Shown piece by piece: positions 42,779-45,423 of a stretch of 64,000 nt of DNA. The notes below the pieces were generated by a model. It was not told the DNA's origin. It ran no database searches and worked only from the letters and a program-made list of their open reading frames with translations. The position numbers and the translations under genes are program-made. The stretch's first letter is position 1, and every line of letters starts with the position of its first letter. This DNA comes from Candidatus Binatia bacterium (lineage in GTDB: Bacteria; Desulfobacterota; Binatia; UBA12015): assembly GCA_029243485.1 (NCBI GenBank), contig JAQWRY010000088.1, positions 363,212 through 427,211 of the forward strand, written 5' to 3'.

Positions 42779-43189
42779 CTAGGACGTGGTTCCCGAGCGC
42801 CACTCGGGTGTCAGAGCGAAGACCTCGCCGTCGCGTTCGACGAGTGGGACACGGTGTAGGAGCTTGCCGCAGGGTGGTCCGGCGACGCACTCTCCGGTGT
42901 TGGGGAGGTACCAGGCGCCGTGCGTTGGGCACATGAGATAGTTGCCGTCTTCGGTGAAGAACTGGTTCTCGACCCAGTCGAGCGTCATGGCGACGTGGCG
43001 GCACTCGTTCACGTAGGCGTTCAGGTCCCCGTCATGTCGTACAACGAAACACTCGACCTGCCGGTCGCCGTCGGGCACGCGGAACTTCTGCGATTTGCCG
43101 TCCTCGATCTCGTCGGCTCGGCACACGCGGGTGCCCTTCGGGGCGGGGTCGGCCGGTGTCGTCACCCCGGGCACGATAGCTGCGAGCAC
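42779..43189 (-). CDS. Rieske [2Fe-2S] domain protein
   Basis: 136 residues. ECRHVAMTLDWVENQFFTEDGNYLMCPTHGAWYLPNTGECVAGPPCGKL supplies C-x-H ... C-x2-H ligands, the second half followed by Y and the GxC-x-G-P loop. Resembles stand-alone ferredoxin-like Rieske proteins that feed electrons to oxygenases; no catalytic oxygenase domain is attached. An extra cysteine pair (GECVAGPPCG) sits after the second ligand pair. It converges on the ABA4-like gene and is divergent from the UGSC module, 160 bases away. Confidence 0.85.
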   Translation of the reverse strand: MLAAIVPGVTTPADPAPKGTRVCRADEIEDGKSQKFRVPDGDRQVECFVVRHDGDLNAYVNECRHVAMTLDWVENQFFTEDGNYLMCPTHGAWYLPNTGECVAGPPCGKLLHRVPLVERDGEVFALTPEWRSGTTS

Positions 43190-43349: not shown

Positions 43350-44405
43350 ATGTCGACGTTTGCTGACGACGAAGCCGGCCCGGAGAGGATCGATCTCGAG
43401 GACGAGTCGCCCGAAGCACTGCAGGCTCTGTTCGACGAGCGCGGCTGGGGCGACGGTCTTCCACTGGTCGCTCCGACCGAGGCACGTGTCGCTGCGATGC
43501 TCGGCGGGCGTGACCCCGACGAAGAGGTTGCGGTTCTGCCGCCCCGGTTCGGTCGAGCGACGCGACAGGCGCTTGCCGTGAACGCGGTCCTCGCGGGTTG
43601 CTCGCCGGAGCTGTTTCCGGTTGTGACGACGGCCATCCGGGCGCTGTCCGGACCCGACGTGAACCTGCAGGGGGTGCAGGCGACGACGCACCCCGTAGCG
43701 CCACTCGTCATCGTGCACGGCGAGGCGGTCGCGGACCTGGCCTTTAACGCGGGCCTTGGTACGTTGGGTCCCGGGACGCGCGCGAACGCGACCGTGGGAC
43801 GCGCGATCCGGCTGGCGCTGTTGCACGTCGGCGGCGGGTACCCCGGGCGAGGAGACCAATCCACCCAGGGGCAGCCGGCCAAGTACTCGTACTGCATCGC
43901 CGAGAACGCACCGGAGAGCCCGTGGGAGGCCTATCATCGCTGGTCCGGTGTGGATGCGGCGAGTGCCGTGACCGTCCACTGCGGCGCCGGTCCGCACAAC
44001 TTCCATGACATGGAGAGCGAGAGCGCGGCCCGGATTCTGGAAAAGGGTGCATCGGCGTTTACTTCGCTTGGGAGCAACAACGCGTGCATCAGCGAAGGGG
44101 AGTGCTTCGTCGTGCTGTGCCCCGAGCATGCGGCGACGATTGCGCGGGAAGGGTGGACCCGGCGGGACGTGCAGAGCTTCCTGTTCGAGAGGGCGCGTTT
44201 ACCCGTGGGCGTCTTCCGACGCGCGTTCGACCAACGGCGCTGGCGACCCTGGATGCAGGAAACACTCGATGCCGATCGGCTCCTGCCGATGACGGACCAT
44301 CCAGACAATTTTCGTGTGCTCGTCGCCGGTGGAGCGGGTAAGCACTCCTGTGTGATTCCGAGTTGGGGCGTGACAAAGAGCCGTACGCTTGCGCTGGACG
44401 ATTGA
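43350..44405 (+). CDS. Uncharacterised protein preceding the UGSC selenoprotein
   Basis: 351 residues. Near the N-terminus: ALFDERGWGDGLPLVAPTEARVAAMLGGRDPDEEVAVLPPRFGRATRQALAVNAVLAGCSPELFPVV, then GPGTRANATVGRAIRLALLHVGGGYPGRGDQSTQGQPAKYSYCIAENAPESPW and TSLGSNNACISEGECFVVLCPEHAATIAREGW. I recognise the overall pattern (W-x-D-G-L-P-x-x-x-P-T) as recurring beside UGSC-type proteins, but not its activity. Cysteines in SYCIAE, TVHCGAG, ACISEGEC and VLCPEH might form a redox or metal centre. The stop is 9 bases before the selenoprotein start; GAGGGGG lies before the ATG. Confidence 0.7.
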   Translation: MSTFADDEAGPERIDLEDESPEALQALFDERGWGDGLPLVAPTEARVAAMLGGRDPDEEVAVLPPRFGRATRQALAVNAVLAGCSPELFPVVTTAIRALSGPDVNLQGVQATTHPVAPLVIVHGEAVADLAFNAGLGTLGPGTRANATVGRAIRLALLHVGGGYPGRGDQSTQGQPAKYSYCIAENAPESPWEAYHRWSGVDAASAVTVHCGAGPHNFHDMESESAARILEKGASAFTSLGSNNACISEGECFVVLCPEHAATIAREGWTRRDVQSFLFERARLPVGVFRRAFDQRRWRPWMQETLDADRLLPMTDHPDNFRVLVAGGAGKHSCVIPSWGVTKSRTLALDD

Positions 44406-44414
44406 GAGGTGAGC

Positions 44415-44939
44415 ATGTCGATCTGGATCCATTCTCCCGAAGGAAACGTGGGCGCGCGGCCGATGCGGCTCTCTCCTCGCGTGGACGTTCTCGCGGGTCG
44501 TCGAATCGGGTTGCTAGACAATCGCAAACCCAACGCCGGCGCTCTGCTGGAGCATGTGGGTGCGCGACTCGCCCAGCGCACCGGCGCGACCGTTTCGTTG
44601 GCGCTGCAGAAGAGCAATGCGGCCGTGCGGTGTGAGGCCGATCTTCTCGACAAGCTGCGCGCGGAAGCCGACGTGATCATCACCGGGAGCGGTGATTGAG
44701 GCTCCTGCACGTCGTGGAGTGTCCACGACCAAGTACAGATGGAACGCCGCGGGGTCCCCGCGGTGCTGCTCGCGACCGAGCCTTTCGTCCCGTTGGCGCT
44801 CCAGCAGAGTGAGTCGTACGGTCTGCGGGGCGCGCGCCTCGCCGTGATCGGGCATCCGCTGGGTGCGATCTCTCCCGCGGAAGTCGAGGCCCGGGCGGAC
44901 GCCGTGATCGACGACGTGCTGCGGTTGCTGGTTGGGTAG
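44415..44939 (+). CDS. UGSC family selenoprotein (TGA at 44697-44699 read as Sec)
   Basis: 174 residues if the in-frame TGA is selenocysteine 95. The frame before it (MSIWIHSPEGNVGARPMRLSPRVDVLAGRRIGLLDNRKPNAG ... ADVIITGSGD) and after it (GSCTSWSVHDQVQMERRGVPAVLLATEPFVPLALQ ... DDVLRLLVG) is the same phase and forms one fold-like protein; together they give D-U-G-S-C-T-S-W-S-V-H-D. This is the motif after which the UGSC (seleno)protein family is named. U95 and C98 would make a redox pair. A hairpin placed like a bacterial SECIS lies just after the TGA. GTG 44409 is an alternative start. Function in the family is unknown. Confidence 0.88.
44711..44729 (+). promoter_or_regulatory. Candidate bacterial SECIS hairpin
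   Basis: Perfect 8-bp stem GTCGTGGA / TCCACGAC closing a GTG loop, within the coding region. The loop begins 19 bases after the TGA, inside the 16-37 base range reported for bacterial SECIS elements, and its first base is G as that model demands. A short extra CTG/CAG pairing below the stem is possible. It would recruit SelB at the UGA. Confidence 0.72.
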
Positions 44940-44943
44940 CCCC

Positions 44944-45282
44944 TCAGTCGAACGAGCGGTCGAAGAAGGCGCGGGCCTCCGCGGAGAGTCGCGCGCGGAT
45001 TTCTTCGTTGCGGAACAGTTCGGGTGGGGCGGGCTGGCCGAAGTCGGGGCGGGGGCCGAACCCGTAGATGATTTCGAAGGTGGGCCTCGCCGGCGCGCGT
45101 CGATAGGTGACGCGGTGAATCATCCAGGCATGGAAGAGGCAGGCGTCGCCAGGTTCCAGTTCGAGCCGATCGTCGGTTTGCTCGATTCGTCTCCTCTCGA
45201 GCACTTGGTCAGAGGCTCATCGGAGCTTCCTGCATTCCTCCTCCGGGAGGAAGCTGCGGATCACGATCCGTCCCGTGTCGGT
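44944..45282 (-). pseudogene. Decayed phytanoyl-CoA dioxygenase-like (PhyH) gene
   Basis: Two same-frame fragments of a Fe(II)/2-oxoglutarate dioxygenase. The distal part (from GTG 45204) reads LERRRIEQTDDRLELEPGDACLFHAWMIHRVTYRRAPARPTFEIIYGFG, where the His and Arg after E-P-G-D match the PhyH C-terminal half. Just upstream the frame reads DTGRIVIRSFLPEEECRKLR, a typical PhyH N-terminus, with stops at both ends. About 130 residues that would carry the H-x-D iron ligands are missing. So the gene has lost its middle and start. The palindromic element at 45305 abuts the N-terminal remnant. Confidence 0.7.
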
Positions 45283-45304
45283 TCAGTCGCTCACGACGCG
45301 CTGA

Positions 45305-45423
45305 GGGAGACGTTCCTTAATCTCGCCCGATTCTTTAATTGGCGGGCTCTCGACGGTTCTCGGTCCCGAATTCCGGCATTCTCGTGATGACTAAAGAAAA
45401 CCCGGAGATTAAAGAACGTCCCC
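45305..45423. mobile_element. Palindromic MITE/REP-like element
   Basis: Imperfect inverted repeat: the left end GGAGACGTTCCTTAATCTC is matched by the right end GAGATTAAAGAACGTCCCC read in reverse complement, with further matching over TTCTTTA. About 119 bases, no ORF of its own. The outer GGGGACGTT...TTA(A/G)TCTC signature is shared with the perfect palindrome at 63598. Such elements are usually moved in trans by a REP-associated Y1 transposase, none of which is in the window. Confidence 0.65.

Follow-up and report, generated by a model that had tools for sequence, protein, structure and literature searches.

A gene of the UGSC selenoprotein family, interrupted by an in-frame TGA, occupies positions 44415–44939 on the forward strand of the window, by which we mean the whole stretch of 64,000 nucleotides analysed. 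It follows a gene for a 351-residue protein that accompanies almost all of the UGSC genes examined. The best overall explanation of the pair would be a thioredoxin-fed selenoreductase made of two parts, to which we assign a probability of about 0.65. UGSC has long been known, and the window gene is a new member of a catalogued family; the family ranks with the most abundant selenoproteins of aquatic metagenomes, the GOS set of 2008 containing 255 of its sequences (PMC2398784), and a 2026 review places it among selenoproteins with largely uncharacterised functions (PMC13188914). The present analysis adds three elements to an earlier sequence-only reading of this DNA, namely the partner gene, a SECIS-like hairpin and the relation to GrdB and PrdB. 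The kinship with GrdB and PrdB, together with a named partner, turns UGSC from a "redox protein" into part of a probable two-protein enzyme that can be tested.

The frame runs from the ATG at 44415 to the TAG at 44937–44939 and comprises 174 codons before the stop, with a single in-frame TGA at codon 95 (44697–44699) where the sequence reads ITGSGD-U-GSCTSWSVHDQV. A Shine-Dalgarno-like GAGAGG (44404–44409, forward strand) lies 5 nt 5' of the ATG and overlaps the stop codon of the partner gene. The read-through protein matches the Pfam model UGSC (PF24696) with 167.2 bits against a cut-off of 25 over residues 6–173, and the NCBIfam model UGSC_fam (NF041046) with 139.3 bits against a cut-off of 125 over residues 28–172. 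Because these two matches cover the read-through protein, the family match spans the TGA and is not a matter of chance. The sequence-only reading had described a frame that crosses the TGA as a well-formed protein of the UGSC family and is hidden by two separate ORF calls, and all of this holds: there is one 174-residue frame, both models score above their cut-offs, and a standard ORF list splits the gene into a 96-residue ORF (from GTG 44409; 94 residues from ATG 44415) and a 66-residue ORF (44739–44939). The protein carries the [U/C]-G-S-C motif of the family, in which the first residue is Sec or Cys, and Cys counterparts exist; the protein itself shows no difference from the family, whereas the near-obligate partner is absent from the family description as excerpted. 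The UGSC protein of L039, from the same genus, is 84% identical to that of the window. The dN/dS ratio between the two genes is 0.12 5' of the TGA and 0.10 3' of it, and 28 of the 42 differences beyond the TGA are in third codon positions. Judged by the profile matches and by dN/dS, 44415–44939 is one gene and belongs to the established UGSC family. Because TGA read as Sec would put the partner and UGSC genes of the window into one frame, a read-through fusion of the two was considered; it was rejected because the TGA of the partner at 44403 is followed by the Shine-Dalgarno-like site and the ATG, and because the spacing varies in relatives. Two scans of viral contigs, one with UGSC and one with the partner, found no relative.

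The partner gene spans 43350–44405 on the forward strand. Its 351-residue product belongs to no Pfam or NCBIfam family, seven members searched at E up to 10 having given chance-level matches, and it was recognized by linkage and co-occurrence. Among the 14 genomes of the same family, 12 contain the partner, with 20 matches for 18 UGSC genes; the two unpaired matches (G002, contig C108, and G007) are part-length. In the wider collection, from which 23 loci had been dropped beforehand as duplicates or as partner-centred, the partner is in the flank and on the same strand for 54 of 57 UGSC domains, upstream in 28 and downstream in 26, and 11 of the downstream partners share one open frame with UGSC if TGA is Sec. 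Most of the gaps between the two genes are shorter than 200 nt, and two measure 814 and 1265 nt. For the other three domains, the partner is ~1.8 kb away (two) or 95 kb away on the same contig (one). In the phylum set of 395 genomes, UGSC was found in 38, the partner in 38 and both in 37, that is, in 37 of the 39 genomes with either (Fisher p 1e-49), with a partner profile derived from the neighbours of UGSC and a limited number of candidates scored per genome in either search. Of the two discordant genomes, one has a UGSC match that is marginal at 25 bits, and the other has a partner match within a 133-residue frame.

Plasmids show the same association. The partner is present at 12 of 12 fetched UGSC loci (from 13 matches), including five of haloarchaea, all Cys. 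The converse search with the partner gave 24 records, and a UGSC-type domain was beside it or in the same protein in 22 of the 23 fetched; 11 of the 24 had first seemed to lack UGSC, but 10 of these proved to have a UGSC-type domain. In Haladaptatus (L179), there is a partner with no UGSC within 4 kb. Four other haloarchaeal loci (L107, L109, L183 and L184) have a single UGSC gene flanked by a partner gene on each side. By linkage and co-occurrence the partner is a near-obligate companion of UGSC, and the two very probably form one enzyme. A UGSC/Unknown_1 fusion, one of several fusions found, was reported in the 2008 GOS paper (PMC2398784), and its Unknown_1 domain is probably the partner described here. 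The likeness lies in a domain fused to UGSC; the difference is that the partner accompanies nearly every UGSC gene examined here, whether separate or fused. The statements on UGSC in PMC2398784, PMC13188914, PMC9312934 and PMC1088965, as excerpted, contain neither a mention of a near-obligate partner nor a link between UGSC and GrdB or PrdB.

Cys84 of the partner (codon 43599–43601, forward strand; motif NAVLAGC) occurs in 29 of 31 aligned partners and is a candidate redox or substrate-site residue. It is missing in L037 and L075, and in several plasmid partners NAVLAGC was not detected. A sequence search of the partner against solved structures gave nothing credible (best E 0.7). The model of the partner has a mean pLDDT of 78.1; its best Foldseek E is 0.15, to a cyclic amide hydrolase of the Toblerone fold, and its best VIA Z is 4.4. 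We claim no fold for it, since the rows for class I fumarase and the Toblerone fold, at Z 3.2–4.3, are at background level.

The relation of UGSC to the reductases emerged from profile comparison. In hhalign, the profile of 30 UGSC sequences matched that of 14 proteins of the GrdB/PrdB type at 96.0% with an E of 3.9e-9, placing Sec on Sec and Cys on Cys. The comparison with GrdB alone gave 95.8% and that with PrdB-like proteins alone 92.8%, against controls of 0.8% for UGSC with one thioredoxin, 4.7% for UGSC with GrdE and 0.2% for the partner with GrdB/PrdB. The elements aligned with GrdB (PF07355/TIGR01917) are strand-U-G-[ST]-C-T, E-x-x-G-[IV]-P-x-V and the HPLG region. PrdB (TIGR04483) and the PrdB-like proteins have U-x-x-C at the same place, with weaker similarity. 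According to the 2026 review, GrdB is the substrate-binding subunit of glycine reductase, thioredoxin is involved in the reduction, and PrdB is a homologue of GrdB (PMC13188914). Family models detect the kinship faintly: TIGR01917 matches the UGSC protein weakly in the same region (E 0.0018), TIGR04483 gives the window protein 14.8 bits against a cut-off of 300, and PF07355 (GRDB) has no match to it, PF24696 being the only model reported at E up to 0.1. None of the PF07355 matches listed contains the Sec TGA, and in 18 of these loci the Sec codon lies further downstream; the sequences behind the PF07355 model may have been cut short at the Sec codon. A PrdB-like PF07355 gene is also present in the source genome (contig C4, 4043–4396).

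On the profile alignment, UGSC is homologous to the Sec domain of GrdB and PrdB, with the U-x-x-C motifs superimposed. The differences from these systems are nonetheless considerable. GrdB is much longer, and the partner of UGSC is not of the GrdE pyruvoyl type that belongs to the glycine reductase complex. The partner was tried both as a homologue of GrdB/PrdB and as a homologue of GrdE, the pyruvoyl subunit, and was rejected as the former at 0.2% in the control above and as the latter at 0.15% against the GrdE profile. As it is unrelated to GrdE, catalysis cannot simply copy that of glycine reductase.

In the mechanism that we propose, UGSC and the 351-residue partner would be the two halves of one reductase: UGSC would contribute the selenol, its Sec lying where the third strand ends, and the partner would probably hold the substrate. 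The selenol of UGSC would attack an activated bond of the substrate bound by the partner, Sec95 and Cys98 (codon 44706–44708, forward strand), the putative resolving partner in U-x-x-C, would then close to a selenenylsulfide, and thioredoxin with thioredoxin reductase would reopen it. Sec95 and Cys98 are likely to be a redox pair. The substrate would probably be a small organic acid or a derivative, which is the weakest step of the proposal. A selenol recycled by thioredoxin is suggested by the U-x-x-C end that UGSC shares with GrdB and PrdB and by the trxB and trxA genes in some clusters, and a GrdB/PrdB-like chemistry fed by thioredoxin is, on the sequence comparisons, the somewhat favoured form of catalysis. 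The chances are about even that UGSC and its partner constitute a separate class of thioredoxin-fed selenoenzymes, in which a selenol domain of the GrdB/PrdB type works with an unrelated substrate holder in place of the pyruvoyl subunit, and which would occur in bacteria and, in the Cys form, in haloarchaea, act on several organic-acid substrates and extend to organisms without Stickland fermentation.

The gene neighbourhoods bear on both the electron supply and the substrate. The order is trxB-trxA-partner-UGSC in Arthrobacter and partner-UGSC-trxB in Roseovarius, and the TrxB and TrxA of the former and the TrxB of the latter score above their NCBIfam cut-offs. In Variovorax SRS16, an annotated trxB precedes the partner by three to four genes, while Haloterrigena and Variovorax boronicumulans have TrxR-like proteins nearby that score below the cut-off. 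Thus an annotated trxB is near UGSC and partner in 3 of 17 annotated plasmid neighbourhoods, or 5 of 17 with the two sub-cut-off TrxR-like proteins. No thioredoxin gene was among the neighbours scanned for the three UGSC copies of the source genome. The neighbours of these copies are unlike each other, with heme synthesis genes near one and acyl-CoA dehydrogenases beside another; elsewhere CoA transferases, isocitrate lyase/PEP mutase, amidohydrolases and TRAP/TTT uptake genes occur near UGSC. The neighbours often suggest use of organic acids. Since they differ widely, no single substrate is indicated, and the idea of one operon function common to all UGSC neighbourhoods was rejected because the neighbours vary too much.

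The same mixture of neighbours, from heme synthesis and acyl-CoA dehydrogenases to CoA transferases, isocitrate lyase/PEP mutase and amidohydrolases, would fit a pair that is not a reductase at all. UGSC and its partner might instead serve as a selenol or thiol carrier, in metal handling, or in chemistry of the lyase or dehydratase type, with Sec at most a nucleophile and thioredoxin needed only for repair. The fold of UGSC, which also resembles cobalamin-binding domains, is compatible with such a role, as are two fused UGSC-partner proteins, from Vibrio europaeus (L180:3377–5062) and Sporomusa termitida (L182:3320–5044). These two have weak UGSC matches of 28–29 bits, neither Sec nor Cys at position 95 nor Cys at 98, and aconitase X and DUF126 genes nearby; they are perhaps a non-redox branch of the UGSC family. 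As they are without the redox residues, not every UGSC/partner protein can use the proposed chemistry. However, the homology of UGSC to the reductases GrdB and PrdB and the presence of trxB and trxA near some clusters speak against a non-reductive function for the pair as a whole, which we regard as unlikely.

A different view of the fold has been expressed in the literature, where a 2008 paper gives UGSC a "likely Trx-like fold" (PMC2398784) and the 2026 review places it among proteins with a Trx-like fold (PMC13188914). Together with the U-x-x-C motif, these statements would favour a general thiol oxidoreductase or antioxidant of the thioredoxin fold, for which the neighbouring gene is just a frequent companion. 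A sequence search of UGSC against solved structures gave nothing credible (best E 0.5). An AlphaFold2 model was made of the L047 fusion (20 rows, mean pLDDT 78.8). The UGSC part of the model has the order E-H-E-H-E-H-E-H-E-H, a five-stranded doubly wound arrangement in which Sec (model residue 102) directly follows the third strand. Among solved structures, those ranked nearest are doubly wound domains of the flavodoxin-like and B12-binding types, with Z up to 11, and the comparison fixes the general fold type of the model and no particular family. No thioredoxin is among the fold rows listed for UGSC, an absence that is compatible with a thioredoxin fold. The profile result (0.8% with one thioredoxin) and the predicted strand-helix order nevertheless argue against a Trx-like fold, and the near-obligate partner stands against a companion that is only frequent. 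A general thioredoxin-fold oxidoreductase is thus improbable.

The two-part selenoreductase requires that codon 95 be read as selenocysteine, and the source genome is equipped for this. The sequence-only reading had expected the Sec machinery elsewhere in the genome, and a search of the assembly (6.55 Mb, 97.5% complete) for selA, selB, selD and tRNA-Sec found all four, on contigs other than C88, which holds the window. A tRNA-SeC(tca), named so by ARAGORN too, is at C86:250416 with 75.6 bits; on the same contig SelA (545 bits, cut-off 268) adjoins SelB (349 bits, cut-off 242), and SelD (285 bits, cut-off 125) is on C47. SelD (C47:88313–89227) sits in a 766-residue open frame. Within the window, ARAGORN found no tRNA gene, and no Rfam family reached its gathering score. 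The genome has three UGSC genes, two of them outside the window, each with exactly one TGA.

The relatives continue across the TGA, and their Cys forms fit at position 95, as the sequence-only reading had anticipated. An alignment of 30 rows, chosen from 58 UGSC stretches, has Sec or Cys at position 95 in every row and Cys at 98 in 30 of 30; the Cys homologues L024, L025, L036, L037 and L076 align at position 95. One of the 58 stretches, the second copy in L070, has no U-x-x-C motif. Among the 86 UGSC matches listed for the 395 genomes, 78 have one TGA, seven have no stop and one has several, with at most eight candidates scored per genome and the place of the TGA read in a subset of the loci. 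In the 14 genomes of the same family, 14 of the 18 UGSC genes have one TGA and four have Cys and no TGA. The TGA genes are confined to nine genomes, all with a tRNA-Sec match of 65–76 bits, and the Cys genes to G012 and G013, whose best matches are 48 and 47 bits. The Rfam cut-off of 47 bits is passed by 13 of the 14 genomes, and the split at 60 bits is our own reading. It is backed by ARAGORN, which names the 50- and 44-bit matches of the source genome tRNA-Leu and tRNA-Ser, and the 48-bit match of G012 tRNA-Ser. In G005 and G006, UGSC is absent and no tRNA-Sec match exceeds 48 bits. G007 (63% complete) has tRNA-Sec and the part-length partner match, with UGSC absent, and G011 (87% complete) combines a TGA gene with tRNA-Sec, with no SelB above the cut-off. 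The four Cys copies, in two relatives seemingly without Sec decoding, amount to a Sec-to-Cys experiment done by nature; the Cys forms of haloarchaea could be produced without Sec machinery.

A SECIS-like hairpin, GUCGUGG-AGUGU-CCACGAC, lies at 44711–44729 on the forward strand, its first base separated from the UGA by 11 nt. It was assessed in 50 TGA and four Cys sequences, obtained from the 58 stretches by dropping the motif-less one and merging identical 60-mers. In the TGA genes, the stem of seven pairs with a 5-nt loop is paired in 312 of 350 cells and has at most one mismatch in 43 of 50. Changes on both sides of a pair occur in 39 cells, compared with 14.5 ± 2.4 after shuffling and no more than 15 in slid versions; for two of the five measures, namely how many pairs and how many types there are, 34 of 500 shuffles did as well. 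The closing pair, which joins codon 101 to the third base of codon 103, is G-C in 25 of the 50 TGA genes, C-G in 22 and broken in three. At codon 101, Trp TGG goes with C in 25 of 27 and Cys TGC with G in 18 of 18 (Fisher p 1e-10, uncorrected for kinship). In all four distinct Cys sequences, this pair is broken. Of the 50 TGA genes, 33 have AGUGU as the loop; five with CUGGU in the loop fit a stem 5 nt further on, and the fit of L065 and L075 to the first stem is poor. Immediately after the TGA, L039 and the window are identical over 36 of 36 nt, against a dS of 0.7 over the whole downstream part. Folded alone, the window hairpin has z values of -0.5 to -2.5 depending on the stretch and is not clearly unusual. 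On the comparative evidence, a putative SECIS-type hairpin directly follows the UGA.

The exchange of TGA for Cys and the alignment point to selenocysteine at codon 95, which SelB and tRNA-Sec of the host almost certainly insert. A TGA that is a genuine stop, or a sequencing error, in a gene in decay, with two ORFs that are separate, as in the standard ORF list, or dead, is scarcely credible: 78 of the 86 listed matches and 14 of the 18 genes in the family have exactly one in-frame TGA, the downstream dN/dS is 0.10, the hairpin shows compensatory changes, and the Sec machinery is complete.

Several further features were observed around the pair and in the relatives. G012 and G013 have SelB-like proteins that score below the cut-off (215 and 205 bits), and by eye no SelA was among the ORFs listed beside that of G013. 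At loci L099 (G012) and L100 (G013), the diverged SelB-like protein is found with UGSC genes that are all Cys and a tRNA-Sec that is not convincing; these SelB-like proteins are possibly a relic of lost Sec decoding. In the window, a divergent Rieske [2Fe-2S] gene (42779–43189) adjoins the partner gene, and a Rieske gene is also part of the UGSC cluster of Natrinema zhouii (L104:11664–12026). Between UGSC and the next gene, positions 44940–45408 contain a C-terminal fragment resembling PhyH, named from sequence with no database match, and an imperfect 21-nt inverted repeat (45331–45351/45396–45416) lies 3' of UGSC before the next gene as well. Because the corresponding gap in L039 is only ~105 bp, 44940–45408 may be an insertion in the source lineage.
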